Source: SAR202 cluster bacterium bin90 (GTDB lineage Bacteria; Chloroflexota; Dehalococcoidia; Lucifugimonadales; JADFKI01). From it: a DNA stretch of 64,000 nt. Below the pieces are notes generated by a model. That model was not told where the DNA came from, searched no databases, and saw only the letters and a program-made list of their open reading frames with translations. The translations under genes and the position numbers were made by a program. Where the stretch lies: the NCBI GenBank assembly GCA_002238855.1, contig MPND01000007.1, positions 1 to 64,000 on the forward strand, written 5' to 3'. Positions within the stretch are counted from its first letter, which is position 1. Each line of letters starts with the position of its first letter. Of this stretch, positions 498-5,831 are shown one piece after another.

Positions 498-863
498 TCG
501 GGTTGAGCCGTTGCCGCTTGCGATTACGTCGCAGGCGGGAGCTTTCGACGAAGATACGCTAGTAATTCGATGTAGGCTGGGTTCTCCCGGCAGGTCTCGT
601 TTCCCGCTCTACTGATGCTCTCTCCACCTGTGCGCTGTCTGCTTTTCGTGCTCACCTCAAGGCTCATTAAGGCGATGTGGAGTGCCTGGCTTTGCCAGTT
701 TCGGCGGGAGTCCGCATGTTGCGGCTCGGGGTGTGTCCCTAGGGTGCGGCGTACTAGATACGAGTGTGCCAAGATCGGAACGTCCGGTGGTCACTGTCGA
801 CCTTGTTTGGGGGAGGGCATTAGAGATGCCTGAGGACTGAATTGCCGAGGGGCGGATAGTGAT
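498..863. other. Intergenic region with no recognised gene
   Basis: Open frames on both strands here (for example 615-833 plus and 524-772 minus) are short, mutually overlapping, rich in Cys, Arg and Trp, and lack ribosome binding sites or recognisable motifs, so I read them as chance. I see no tRNA or known riboswitch. Confidence 0.5.
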
Positions 864-894
864 GCGGGCGCAGGAGATTTCTTCCTGCGCCCGC
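864..894 (-). terminator. Strong hairpin after the Cache-domain gene
   Basis: A perfect 12-bp inverted repeat (gcgggcgcagga / tcctgcgcccgc) with a 7-base loop lies about 60 bases beyond the stop of the minus-strand gene ending at 958. There is no clear T-run on the minus side, so it may act as a terminator or an mRNA 3'-end stabiliser. Confidence 0.55.
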
Positions 895-900
895 ACTTGT

Positions 901-1562
901 TTCAGGGGCTGAGCGCCGGCTGTTGCCCGCGCCCAGCTTTTCGGTTATTTCGGCTACTTACGGAACATCGAAACTGCCCCAGCAGATGACGGCGCCGTCG
1001 TTGCGCAGGGCGCAGGTGTGGTTGTCTCCGCTGCTTATCTCCGTGAAGCTTCCGCTTGTGGGACGGTCAGAGACCTGCCCATAGTCGTTGTCGCCCCAGC
1101 ACATTATGGAGCCATCGGTCGCTATCGCGCACACATGGTTCGCTCCGCTGCTTATGGCTATAAAGGTCATGTCGGGCTCGGGCGTGGGCGGCTCATCTAC
1201 TTCTTCAATTTCCACGACGAGAGTGAAGTCACCTGCCCTTTCAGCGCTGTATGTCGTCGCTTCTATCGTGTAGGTGCCGGCGCTCAGTGCATGGCCCTCT
1301 ATTTGAGAGTTGCGGTTGTCTGTGGAGATGTCGTCGTTTTCCTCTTCAATATCTCCGTCCTTTTCTGAACCTTCCATGAGGTACAGGTATGTGTCCACAT
1401 CAGAGGTGAGGTCTATGGTTACGCTCGTGTCTTCGTCCACCGTGAAGGTGAAGAAGCGAGCGTAGTAGTCACTTCCGGGGTTTCCGCCAACGCCTTCGGG
1501 CCTGTTCTCGGATAGGCAAGTGGCGTCCCAACTTCCTGCGTAGGTGCCGCTGCCGTCAATCG
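901..1562 (-). repeat. Duplicated block, copy 1 (PPC-like + RCC1-like module)
   Basis: About 662 bases, including roughly 57 bases of non-coding 3' flank, are nearly identical to 3666-4327. The block codes for the C-terminal ~200 residues of the Cache-domain protein. Both copies have the same length and the same position relative to the stop codon. The match fades sharply on the upstream side of each gene, where the two proteins become unrelated. Confidence 0.9.
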
Positions 1563-3318
1563 CGGTGAAGCATGGGTCCTGCAGGCCGGGAGGCGGCGCG
1601 CCGCCGTAGTATCCAGAGCCGAATATCATGCCCTGGAACCTGGTTACATAGGTGTACTTTCGTTCTTCCTGGCCGGTTGCGGGATTCGGCCATAGGTGAC
1701 TAAGCCAGATTGATTCGCCTTCCTGCACTGCGGCTATTTTCTGGCCGAGCGCTGGATCGTCGCTTGACCGAAGGTTGCTGATGTTGGTCCGAACTAGATT
1801 CGGCATTGTCGCGTCCGCGGCGATGGTACCGTCGGGAGCCACGAGGAATACATAGCGTTCGCCATCTATGCTCGCTTGGGTGTTGTAATACACGATGATG
1901 CGGCCGACCGCAGAGAGGTCGCCGCCGAACGCGAGCAGGCGCGCGCCAGCCTTGTAAATGAAGGCGACGACATCCTCATAGGGTTCAAGGGTGGATTCGA
2001 CATCCTCCGTTCTGTCCCAGGATCCGGCGGCGAAGATGAGGCCGTCGGCCTTGATCGCCCAGGTATGCTTTCTATATATCGTGAAGTCATCGCGGGGATC
2101 AGGGATGAGGTAGTCAACGAAGGTACCGTTCTCGTCGGCAGCCGCGATTTCCCTGCCGTACTCTTTGCCGATGGCATCAATGCCGATACGGCTCGTGATG
2201 TCCTCCCCTACCGAACCGGCGAAGCCTCCGCTGACGATAATCTCGGTGCCGTCGATGATGAAGAGGTAGAGGTCGGAAGTTCTGTCGACGCTTGCTTCGG
2301 ACTGGTAGTATTCCTTAGCGGCATCGGGGTCTTCGCGATATGCTCTGATAGCCTCTTCGACATACGCCTGTGCCGCCGCCCTGGGACCGGCCACAGGAGG
2401 ATCTTCGCCATAGAATCCGGAGACGATGTAGAATCCGAAGAATCTGGTCACATATGAGTGCTTCTGCTCCACCTGACCTGTCGCCGGGTTCGGCCACATG
2501 TGGCTTATCCAGCGCGCGTTTAGTGTCTCTACCGCCAATATTTCCTCGCCCACTTCAGGGTAGGCGTCAGCTATATTTGTTCCTTCCAATTCGGGCATTG
2601 TGGCGTCGGCGGCAATTCGACCAGTTGGATATGCAAGCCAGACGTAGAACTCGCCGTCTATGCTATCGGTGCTCTTGTAATGGTTGAGGGTTGGAATCGC
2701 CGTTTCTGCCTGGACGCGTGCCCTGGCTTCAATAACGGCCCCGATGGCTTTCTGCGCATCAGTGAACGAGGATTCGACATCGCCTTGCAAGTCCAGCCAG
2801 CCCGCTGAAAATACGAGGCCGTCCGCCCGAATTGCCCAGGCGGTCTTCTTACGGTAAGTGTAGTCCTGGCTACCGACAGGAATGAGATAATCCACTACTG
2901 CGCCAGCTTCGTCTGCCGCGGCGAGCCTTGCCCCATACATATTGCCGAGAGGATCGTCGCGCCAGGAAATATCGGTTCCCTCAGCTGCAGGGAATGCACC
3001 ATTGACGACGATGTTGTTGCCGTCGAGCAACAGAAGATACAGACCCGGAGGATCGTTCACGTGGCTTTCGGGGGTTCGATAGTATTGCTTTGCAGCTTCG
3101 GGATCTTCGCGATAACTTCTTATGGCTTCATTTACATAGTCTTTTGTTGCTTCGAGTGGATCGGTGGTGGTCTGCTGGTTGGCTACGGATTGCTGTGAAT
3201 GGATTTGCGATTCGTAGCCGCTCGCAGGCGTTGTCCCGGGTGGCAATAGACCTGCGATTGCAGCGAATGTGATTGCGCCGAGCAGGGCCAATGCTATACT
3301 TATGACACTGAGTCTCAT
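958..3318 (-). CDS. Exported multi-Cache-domain protein with PPC-like and RCC1-like C-terminus
   Basis: About 786 residues. The N-terminus is a signal peptide or membrane anchor (MRLSVISIALALLG..., then a hydrophobic run to ~residue 25). It is followed by four Cache-like units (about 55-185, 185-315, 320-445, 445-575) arranged as two A-B repeats. Each A unit begins with a Y(V)xEAIRxYREDPxAAKxYY helix and contains LYLxxxDGxxIxV; each B unit contains IDGExYVxLxxPxGxIAADATMP and ends LWPNPATGQ. Then comes a PPC-like beta domain (~580-705, with DYYARFFTFTVDEDT) and two RCC1-type repeats (~715-786, HVCAIATDGSIMCWGDNDYGQV). Cache domains normally bind small ligands outside the cell, but there is no cytoplasmic kinase or chemotaxis module here, so it may be a soluble or surface binding protein. 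I chose the ATG at 3318 because GGAGGT lies 10 bases upstream; an in-frame ATG at 3336 would place that sequence inside the gene. It shares its C-terminus with the protease encoded next door. Confidence 0.85.
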   Translation of the reverse strand: MRLSVISIALALLGAITFAAIAGLLPPGTTPASGYESQIHSQQSVANQQTTTDPLEATKDYVNEAIRSYREDPEAAKQYYRTPESHVNDPPGLYLLLLDGNNIVVNGAFPAAEGTDISWRDDPLGNMYGARLAAADEAGAVVDYLIPVGSQDYTYRKKTAWAIRADGLVFSAGWLDLQGDVESSFTDAQKAIGAVIEARARVQAETAIPTLNHYKSTDSIDGEFYVWLAYPTGRIAADATMPELEGTNIADAYPEVGEEILAVETLNARWISHMWPNPATGQVEQKHSYVTRFFGFYIVSGFYGEDPPVAGPRAAAQAYVEEAIRAYREDPDAAKEYYQSEASVDRTSDLYLFIIDGTEIIVSGGFAGSVGEDITSRIGIDAIGKEYGREIAAADENGTFVDYLIPDPRDDFTIYRKHTWAIKADGLIFAAGSWDRTEDVESTLEPYEDVVAFIYKAGARLLAFGGDLSAVGRIIVYYNTQASIDGERYVFLVAPDGTIAADATMPNLVRTNISNLRSSDDPALGQKIAAVQEGESIWLSHLWPNPATGQEERKYTYVTRFQGMIFGSGYYGGAPPPGLQDPCFTAIDGSGTYAGSWDATCLSENRPEGVGGNPGSDYYARFFTFTVDEDTSVTIDLTSDVDTYLYLMEGSEKDGDIEEENDDISTDNRNSQIEGHALSAGTYTIEATTYSAERAGDFTLVVEIEEVDEPPTPEPDMTFIAISSGANHVCAIATDGSIMCWGDNDYGQVSDRPTSGSFTEISSGDNHTCALRNDGAVICWGSFDVP

Positions 3319-3374
3319 GTTCGGTTGTACCTCCATGTTGTTATGAAAGAATAAGGCATTATTGCCTGACCGTT

Positions 3375-3405
3375 ATATTACTAGCACAAAATATGTGATT
3401 GTCAA
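3375..3405 (-). promoter_or_regulatory. Candidate promoter of the Cache-domain gene
   Basis: On the minus strand a perfect TTGACA (3400-3405) is followed after 19 bases by TAATAT (3375-3380), about 55 bases upstream of the chosen start. The spacer is 1-2 bases longer than ideal. Confidence 0.45.
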
Positions 3406-3458
3406 AGATTATTGATACTGAACTATCAGTAATTCCTGAACTTCAGTATCAGTAAGAC
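3406..3458. promoter_or_regulatory. GATACTGA-type repeats, possible operator
   Basis: An inverted repeat (gatactgaa at 3414-3422, ttcagtatc at 3442-3450) with further copies of the half-sites lies directly upstream of the candidate promoter of the Cache-domain gene. The words attattgatact and agtatcagta recur upstream of the protease gene (5848-5940), on the opposite strand. Joint control of the two genes is an inference. Confidence 0.4.
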
Positions 3459-3626
3459 GTTCACATTCGGAATTCTTCATGTCTTTGTGACGAATTTGAT
3501 TCGGGAGAATCGGGGTACAGCCGATAGACACTAGAGAGCAGGGCAACCTATCTCACGAGGTCGTGAGGGGGACCGAATGGACTGCGCAGGTGCAGATGAA
3601 AGCGGCACTGGCTGTTGCAAGAACAG
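3459..3626. other. Non-coding spacer with small palindromes
   Basis: Contains a GATTC-GGGA-GAATC hairpin (3498-3511) and a perfect CTCACGA-GG-TCGTGAG palindrome (3552-3567). I could not match the segment to a known riboswitch or RNA family, and no gene is evident. Confidence 0.35.
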
Positions 3627-3660
3627 AAAAGGCGGAGGATTCTCGAACCCTCCGCCTTTT
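3627..3660 (-). terminator. Intrinsic terminator of the subtilase gene
   Basis: AAAAGGCGGAGG and CCTCCGCCTTTT form a perfect 12-bp stem with A and T tails on either side, so it could act in both directions. It lies about 60 bases past the stop of the minus-strand protease gene. Confidence 0.85.
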
Positions 3661-3665
3661 GGCTT

Positions 3666-4327
3666 TTCAGGGGCTGAGCGCCGGCGGTTGCCCGCGCCCA
3701 GCTTATCGGTTATTTCGGCTACTTACGGAACATCGATGCTGCCCCAGCAGATTACCGCGCCGTCGCTGCGCAGAGCGCAGGTGTGGTTGTCTCCACTGCT
3801 TATCTGGGTGAAGCTACCGCTTGTGGGACGGTCTGAGACCTGTCCATAATCGTTGTCGCCCCAGCACATTATGGAGCCATCTTCAGCTATCGCGCATACA
3901 TGGTTCGCTCCGCTGCTTATGGCTGTGAATCGCATGCCGGGCTCAGGCTCAGTTGGCTCATCAACTTCCTCTATTTCCACGACGAGCGTGAACTCCCCTG
4001 CCGTCTCAGCGTTATAAGTCGCCGCCTCTATCGTGTAGGTGCCAGCGCTCAGTGCGAGGCCCTCTATGCGAGAGCTGCGATTGTCTGACGATATGTCGTC
4101 GTTCTCCGCCTCTATCGCACCGTCCTTGTCAGAACCTTCCATGAGGTACAGGAATGTATCCGCATCTGAGGTGAGGTCTATGGTCATATTCGTGTCTTCG
4201 TCCACCGTGAATGTGAAGAATCGCGCGTAGTAGTCGCTGCCGGGGTTGCCGCCATCGCCTTCGGGCCTGTTCTCGGATAGGCAAGTGTCGTCCCAACTTC
4301 CTGAGTAGGTGCCGCTGCCGTCGATCG
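3666..4327 (-). repeat. Duplicated block, copy 2 (PPC-like + RCC1-like module)
   Basis: Second copy of the ~662-base block at 901-1562, covering the C-terminal PPC-like and RCC1-like part of the subtilase plus its 3' flank. Most differences are single substitutions and the reading frame is preserved, which suggests duplication or gene conversion with both products still under selection. Confidence 0.9.
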
Positions 4328-5831
4328 TCTGGAGGCAGGTGTCCACCATCGGGGGCATAGCGCCTTCCACATCGTCGGGTAGCATTGCGAAGCCGTGTCC
4401 CCAGGTGTTGTTGGGGTCGGCGTTCGGTCCGAAGAATCGATCCTCAATTGGCCGGGACTCGGCGTTCGCCTTGAGATACTCGGCGACTTCCTGGGGGGTG
4501 TAGTCGGGATAGCGCTGCTTTACAAGAGCCGCCAAACCAGTTACATGCGCCGCTGCAAGGCTAGTGCCTTCCCATACATTTCCGAGAATCGCAGAGTGTG
4601 TGTCGTCAACACCCACAATGTCGGGCTTGATGTCTCCGGAGTTCATTGGCCCACGCCCGCTGAATGGCTGAATCTGGCCGGTGGTGCCCACCGCCGCAGC
4701 TCCGACCGTGAGCGCTCCAGGATTACGGGTCTCGCCCGGACTGGTGATGCTGCCGTACCGTGAGGGGTAGGAGAGGCCATGTCTGCCGTAGGACTGCAGG
4801 TTCACGACAATCAGGTCATCGGTCGGAGTCATGAGTTGCAGACGCAAGCAGTATGACGCCTGCCTGTCGGGGGTAGTAAAATCGAGCAATTCATTCGGGT
4901 CACCGGGCGCGAACGCGTTCTTCTGGCTTGTCGCCACGACCTGTCCGTTGCCTTTATCAACAAGTGATAGCTCGAAATCGCTAGTCGCCGCTCTCCATGT
5001 GTCGGCCCACCTAAGCTGGACTCTATACGGATGATCCGTTTCTGAGAGGTCAACGTCGTTGCACTCGATTCCTGAATCGAATTCGTGAATGTTGTCACTG
5101 TCGGCGTCTGTGAAGAAGCCCGACCAAGTGTCCTGCGCGCGGTCTCCCGCAGGGCTGATCCATGTGATGCCGTTTTCGACTGCATTGTTCAATGTATTGA
5201 GTTCGCTGGTGGGGTAAACTGAGGTACCGTCCCCGGGACCCGACCACCCGCCGGCGTGCGAGAAAGTTATGATGTCCACGTCTTCATCGATCATCCAGTC
5301 CACGGCGTCTTTCAGGTCGGTGTGATAGAAACTGAAATGCGAGACTGCGGCGATGTAGTATTCGGCCTCGGGGGCGATGTCATACACGGCTTCCAGCACG
5401 GATGAGCCGTGAAGGGAGCTGAAGTGCAGAGCGGTGTGGTCGCAGTCGGCGATATCGGTTGTATAACTTGGCGGCGCTGAGGGGTTAAGGTTAAAGCTGT
5501 AGCAGCGCACGCCTACTGGATCAGGCACTTCTGTCCCGATGTGACTTTCGATTCCGCCAAACCCGAAGTCGATGATACCGATTTTGACGCCCGCGCCTTT
5601 GAAGCCGGCTTCGTGCCACTTGTCGGCGCCGTGCGCGGCGATGGCGCCGGAGCCAGCCTGCTGGTTCGAGACCGAGTCCCCAGAATGGAGCTGTGGTTCG
5701 TGGATGCTTGCCTCGATGCCGGTTACGCCGGTCAACGGTGAGGTGCCTGCTGGGAGGATTCCCGCAAGGGCAGCCAGCGTGAGTGCACCAATTAGGGTTA
5801 GGGTAAAGACGCCTAGTTTTCTCTTCATCAT
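3723..5831 (-). CDS. Secreted subtilisin-family (S8) serine protease with PPC-like and RCC1-like C-terminus
   Basis: 702 residues. The N-terminus carries a signal peptide (KRK, then a hydrophobic run to ~25). The peptidase S8 fold spans about 65-470: catalytic Asp88 (GIIDFGFGG), His141 (LHGSSV) and Ser424 (GTSLAAAH). At the usual oxyanion-hole position, where AGN is expected, the sequence reads SPAGD (Asp230). A beta-rich insertion occupies ~235-350. A PPC-like domain (~495-625) and two RCC1-type repeats (~634-702) follow and are almost identical to those of the neighbouring Cache-domain protein. Likely role: extracellular or surface proteolysis. The start has AGGTGAGG a few bases upstream. 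The gene is monocistronic, with its own terminator and probably its own promoter. Confidence 0.9.
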   Translation of the reverse strand: MMKRKLGVFTLTLIGALTLAALAGILPAGTSPLTGVTGIEASIHEPQLHSGDSVSNQQAGSGAIAAHGADKWHEAGFKGAGVKIGIIDFGFGGIESHIGTEVPDPVGVRCYSFNLNPSAPPSYTTDIADCDHTALHFSSLHGSSVLEAVYDIAPEAEYYIAAVSHFSFYHTDLKDAVDWMIDEDVDIITFSHAGGWSGPGDGTSVYPTSELNTLNNAVENGITWISPAGDRAQDTWSGFFTDADSDNIHEFDSGIECNDVDLSETDHPYRVQLRWADTWRAATSDFELSLVDKGNGQVVATSQKNAFAPGDPNELLDFTTPDRQASYCLRLQLMTPTDDLIVVNLQSYGRHGLSYPSRYGSITSPGETRNPGALTVGAAAVGTTGQIQPFSGRGPMNSGDIKPDIVGVDDTHSAILGNVWEGTSLAAAHVTGLAALVKQRYPDYTPQEVAEYLKANAESRPIEDRFFGPNADPNNTWGHGFAMLPDDVEGAMPPMVDTCLQTIDGSGTYSGSWDDTCLSENRPEGDGGNPGSDYYARFFTFTVDEDTNMTIDLTSDADTFLYLMEGSDKDGAIEAENDDISSDNRSSRIEGLALSAGTYTIEAATYNAETAGEFTLVVEIEEVDEPTEPEPGMRFTAISSGANHVCAIAEDGSIMCWGDNDYGQVSDRPTSGSFTQISSGDNHTCALRSDGAVICWGSIDVP

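Follow-up and report, generated by a model that had tools for sequence, protein, structure and literature searches.

Sixteen exported proteins, counted from sequence-search matches in draft genomes, end in a pair of RCC1/BLIP-II-type repeats in four of the five genomes of the genus to which the DNA analysed here belongs. The pair occupies the C-terminus, follows cores that are unrelated to one another and is predicted to fold as two propeller blades; in the window (the whole stretch of DNA that was analysed, 64,000 nt) it is encoded by two genes, A and B (Table 1), the second of which is a mosaic. The tail may represent a portable C-terminal module for the non-covalent assembly or retention of exported proteins, a reading to which we give a probability of about 0.45. 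Export through the Sec pathway is suggested for the family by hydrophobic N-termini, as judged by eye.

Table 1. Features of the gene A and gene B region, in window positions.
Feature	Position	Strand	Length	Basis or remark
Gene A, exported Cache-domain protein with PPC + RCC1-pair tail	958..3336	-	792 aa	
A leader (signal-peptide-like + linker)	3172..3336	-		homologous to B leader, z 20.7
A core, two tandem pairs of Cache domains	1579..3171	-		Pfam; orthologs L093 and L094 have one pair
A tail, PPC-like beta-sandwich	1195..1578	-		Pfam, structure
A tail, terminal RCC1 pair (two blades)	961..1182	-		Pfam, sequence alignment
A 3′ flank with GC hairpin	900..957	-		shared with B (56/58 nt)
Hairpin beyond A shared flank	863..895	-		13-bp stem without U-tract, sequence unlike that of B
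Gene B, subtilisin (S8) with PPC + RCC1-pair tail	3723..5831	-	702 aa	
B leader, A-type rather than S8-type; S8-family prodomain missing	5646..5831	-		leader z-scores, alignment
B core, Peptidase_S8 with Asp/His/Ser triad motifs	4344..5645	-		Pfam, alignment, core tree
B tail, PPC-like beta-sandwich	3960..4343	-		Pfam, AF2 model
B tail, terminal RCC1 pair (two three-stranded blades in model)	3726..3947	-		AF2, structure comparison
B 3′ flank with GC hairpin	3665..3722	-		shared with A
Intrinsic-terminator-like hairpin with T-tract beyond B shared flank	3627..3660	-		

A Pfam scan detects sCache_2/dCache_2 matches in two pairs in the product of gene A, whose likelier start is the ATG at 3318 with GGAGG directly upstream, and Peptidase_S8 in that of gene B. 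Both contain two RCC1_2 repeats that score far over the cut-off of 22 bits (72.9 bits in A, 75.7 in B), while their PPC (PF04151) scores of 25.7 and 24.4 lie slightly below the gathering cut-off of 25.9, with relatives reaching 47.5. By local alignment the shared block spans 900-1579 in A and 3665-4344 in B on the minus strand, in frame, and its edges are abrupt on both sides, with only 18/60 identities in the next 60 nt on the 3′ side and background similarity upstream of the module. The sequence-only reading, made earlier from this DNA, had described the blocks at 901-1562 and 3666-4327 as nearly identical and recently duplicated. The in-frame match is confirmed, but the degree of identity was overstated, as the 206-aa tails share 175 residues (85%) and differ at 25 of 80 four-fold sites (31% divergence). 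Differences at the nucleotide level (87/621) fall mostly at third codon positions (14, 19 and 54 at positions one, two and three), which indicates that the tails are under purifying selection. Tails in the sister genomes are 67-68% identical, so that, judged from these comparisons, the duplication is moderately old yet younger than the split from those genomes; the four-fold divergence rules out a very recent event. A tandem duplication with full-length homology is likewise ruled out, because the Cache and S8 cores are unrelated.

The N-terminal parts of the two proteins had also been considered unrelated, which holds for the cores but overlooked the homology of the leaders. The first 66 residues of B align with A at z = 20.7 and with its Cache orthologs from two sister genomes at 14.8 and 9.8, whereas the leaders of other S8 proteins in the genus reach background values only (z 2.5 or less); alignment with S8 proteins reveals that the S8-family prodomain region is absent from B. 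Furthermore, B is nested among Cache tails in the tail tree (support 95/97) and among S8 cores in the core tree. The leader scores and the conflict between the trees identify B as a mosaic of an A-type leader, a foreign S8 core and an A-type tail with its 3′ flank. It is proposed that B began as a tandem duplicate of a gene like A, in which an S8 core took the place of the Cache core while the leader, tail and 3′ flank were kept; the alternative order, in which both ends of an S8 gene were overwritten, would take more steps and is not preferred. The suggestion of an exchanged C-terminal module thus applies to the genus, across which the module is portable, but in the A/B pair it was the core that was swapped. 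Exchanging the core while leader and tail stay constant would allow new enzymes to be fitted out for one and the same extracellular location. The Cache region of A (1579-3171) is itself an internal duplication relative to its sister orthologs L093 and L094.

The inclusion of about 57 bases of 3′ flank in the shared block was correctly recognized: the flank is 58 nt long and contains two differences, both outside a perfect GC hairpin stem, making it better conserved than the four-fold sites (P = 1.3e-7 under the four-fold rate). Beyond it, A and B each run into a different hairpin. The flank is absent downstream of the sister Cache genes, and a repeated mobile element can be ruled out because no further copy was found in the genome within 3 mismatches and no Rfam family was matched. 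Its conservation points either to a constrained RNA element or to a short tract of conversion. The latter is the poorer fit, since four-fold sites in the last 30 codons (4/12 differing) show no drop in divergence.

The 4.6-Mb genome contains 76 matches to the A/B tail module, and the expectation that many unrelated exported N-termini would carry it was realized. In the genus the terminal pair follows Cache cores (A, L093 and L094), S8 cores (B, L061-L064, L076, L095, L096, L099 and L210), LRR repeats with or without cadherin (L060 with, L073 without) and Spondin_N (L106). It conforms to the consensus F..ISSG.NHVCAL..DGSI.CWG.N..GQ....P..G.F..ISSG..H.CALR.DGAV.CWGSF.V.P-stop at the extreme C-terminus, and the last CWG lies 5-8 aa before the stop in 15 of the 16 proteins, the sole exception being L099, which ends with an ordinary repeat. 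Repeat number in the family is either two or four, with no odd numbers, the pair being doubled as a unit in L061, L062 and L095, whose second pairs cluster together in the tree. A PPC domain precedes the pair in most members but gives way to linkers rich in Pro, Thr and Glu in L073, L076 and L106, and PPC domains lacking the pair occur on many other proteins of the same genome as a separate, commoner module. Of the joint PPC and RCC1 module that had been described, then, the recurrent C-terminal part is the RCC1 pair, which these alignments identify as the constant element, and the PPC is optional. The core of L076 resembles that of the S8 protein L071, which lacks the pair, and its own pair is close to that of the spondin protein in the trees, indicating a second reshuffle of core and pair.

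Several members of the family, or sequences near to it, are unusual in other respects. The S8 proteins with doubled pairs (L061:2797-5409, L062:3104-5728 and L095:3727-6294) resemble pseudoproteases, with degenerate Asp and His motifs in all three and a degenerate Ser motif also in L061 and L095. The Spondin_N protein (L106:1921-3246), from MAG SB0664_bin_29, has a long Thr/Pro-rich linker before the same terminal pair. Short ORFs consisting only of RCC1 repeats were detected at L069:6218-6448, L099:9263-9460 and L211:5263-5439 (77, 66 and 59 aa) and may be tails that a frameshift or decay has separated from the core; that of L099 overlaps the end of an ORF with three PPC domains.

In an AF2 model of the tail (pLDDT 88.6), a linker connects a PPC sandwich to two blades of three strands each (139-144, 148-153 and 158-162, then 178-183, 187-192 and 197-201). 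This confidence rests on a 34-row alignment made up in large part of propeller repeats, so that AF2 may simply be recalling propellers. Modelled alone with four rows from the genus, the pair yields the same six strands, but at low confidence (pLDDT 68.5). In a structural comparison with VIA-align, residues 131-206 overlay two neighbouring blades of BLIP-II (Z 10.9, rmsd 2.1 over 73 aa), and by the same method the PPC half matches PPC/collagen-binding domains over 93-100 aa (Z 12.2 to 5sv5 and 11.8 to 1nqj). Against a profile of array repeats the terminal repeats score 29 and 31 bits, as compared with 32.5 ± 10.7 for array blades; since they score like ordinary blades, the blade consensus of the pair shows no sign of decay despite the missing neighbours.

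Outside the family, RCC1 repeats are mostly found in longer arrays. In a search of 84,980 species genomes, the RCC1_2 ORFs at the best 80 loci mostly contain about 7, 14, 21 or 46 repeats, split or odd arrays occur, and no clean terminal pair was seen among these loci beyond the genus members L100 and L106, which belong to the sister genome SB0664_bin_29. When the pair profile was compared with 247 genomes of the order, the best matches, and the high-scoring matches that reach the C-terminal end of the model, fell within the genus among the matches listed; the out-of-genus loci that were read contain mainly internal repeats of 7- or 14-repeat arrays, together with one terminal pair in a GLUG-motif protein of G212 (L192:1375-3090). 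With two repeats the tail cannot form a seven-blade ring within one chain, and the earlier view that two are too few for a propeller is upheld by the prevalence of 7 or 14 repeats elsewhere in the order. A plasmid search returned partial RCC1 matches only, and no relative was found in viral contigs, which rules out a viral origin. Two closely similar proteins of the same genome (L081:1-3054 and L082:657-4196) have long RCC1 arrays, with 10 repeats detected in two blocks, that are probably ordinary full propellers, and giant RCC1_2 arrays of ∼46-47 repeats in ORFs of ∼2042 aa occur in several Chloroflexi MAGs (L105, L111, L116, L119, L127 and L131). Several related MAGs carry the sample labels RHO, COS and IRC, which look to us like those of sponge surveys. 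Since near relatives include sponge-associated MAGs, such tails could have a role in living within sponge tissue.

A propeller blade is usually packed between two neighbours, and because two blades cannot close a propeller, it is proposed that the pair is completed by other chains or by a partner. In such a tail, two RCC1/BLIP-II-type blades at the extreme C-terminus, preceded by a beta-sandwich of PPC type or by a linker rich in Pro and Thr, would either combine with those of other chains into a full propeller (4x2, 2x4 and 3x2 are examples) or attach to a partner. Through such oligomerization and surface or matrix retention, Cache sensors, subtilisins and LRR, cadherin and spondin proteins would be clustered and held on the cell surface or in the host matrix, with the PPC perhaps contributing protein or matrix binding. 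This reading is favoured by the maintained blade sequence, the fixed C-terminal position, the repeat numbers of two or four and the unrelated exported cores. RCC1-type propellers have seven blades, which is not a multiple of two and counts against a ring built from pairs, and no obvious 5-blade partner that would complete seven with a pair was seen among the RCC1 ORFs that were read. Natural oligomeric propellers are rare (PMC9218822). The BambL lectin is a six-bladed propeller closed by three protomers (PMC5478714), and engineered two-blade and four-blade WD40 fragments form 8-bladed tetramers and dimers, respectively (PMC6805158). The presence of the same two-blade fragment on unrelated exported proteins would permit a direct test of partial propellers as assembly tags. 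A bolder and distinctly doubtful extension is that unrelated exported proteins of one cell co-assemble into mixed hubs via their two-blade tails (for example 2+2+2+2 or 4+2+2, giving eight blades). If true, sensors, proteases and adhesive repeats would be joined at the cell surface, plug-and-socket fashion, by a propeller not encoded in full by any one gene.

The strongest competitor, unlikely in our estimation yet ahead of the others, is that the tail is a monomeric ligand-binding domain, adhesive or substrate-targeting, that brings its core to a target without oligomerization, with the PPC acting on protein or a collagen-like matrix and the two blades on glycan or protein. The resemblance of the PPC half to collagen-binding domains agrees with this, as do the cadherin, LRR and spondin cores, which suggest matrix contact, the binding of protein substrates by the PPC domains of protease E495 (PMC3327674) and the enrichment of cadherin and fibronectin-type adhesion genes in sponge symbiont genomes (PMC8163846). 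It accounts less readily for the proteins in which PPC is dispensable (L073, L076 and L106), and two blades are not normally a stable fold.

Somewhat less probable is ordinary domain shuffling, in which the tails are products of simple tandem duplication or recombination hitch-hiking with no common function beyond C-terminal folding or stability. PPC and RCC1 are promiscuous domains, A adjoins B and the block they share takes in non-coding flank; against this, A and B lack full-length homology, and the terminal pair, under purifying selection, has persisted behind several unrelated cores across four genomes and through at least two reshuffles.

That the tail is a surface-anchoring or sorting tag had been suggested from its sequence. 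A strictly C-terminal, lineage-specific element on unrelated cores could indeed be a signal that is recognized, then cleaved or attached, by a dedicated export or anchoring machine, but this is improbable, as the tails end in ...CWGSxxVP and contain no LPXTG or PEP-CTERM-type combination of motif, terminal hydrophobic helix and basic end. Moreover, the single sortase of each genome is present too in G003, a genome without tails, Por_Secre_tail (TIGR04183) matches were found in none of the five genomes of the genus, and no NCBIfam sorting-tail family was matched in seven proteins scanned. Sorting of the sortase or type IX kind is thus unsupported, and non-covalent retention or assembly fits better. 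Although the MAG is in 213 contigs, a false join of two genes across a repeat during assembly can be dismissed with little hesitation, as the two copies differ at 14% of bases and both architectures recur independently (Cache with tail in G001 and G002, S8 with tail in several other genes).

The terminal pair shares its repeat, with paired cysteines and CWG, with the RCC1/BLIP-II propellers (RCC1_2, PF13540; BLIP-II, UVR8 and plant CRINKLY4/ACR4), from which it differs in having only two (or 2+2) blades that are always C-terminal and form no closed propeller, and in a second repeat that passes into a short strand and stop rather than an N..GQ turn. The PPC half has the fold (Z about 12) of the PPC domains of secreted proteases, including clostridial collagen-binding domains, and in the tail-bearing S8 proteins likewise follows the catalytic domain; unlike known PPC domains, its scores straddle the Pfam cut-off, it also follows Cache and LRR cores and it is not always found with the RCC1 pair. 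Type IX secretion C-terminal domains are also short, beta-rich and attached to unrelated exported proteins, but their fold is different and TIGR04183 is unmatched in the genus. The two-repeat lectins RSL and BambL are similarly short two-blade chains, known from the literature to trimerize to close a propeller, although they are stand-alone lectins and the likeness drawn here is one of blade number. No earlier report of terminal RCC1 pairs as tails was found in the open-access literature.
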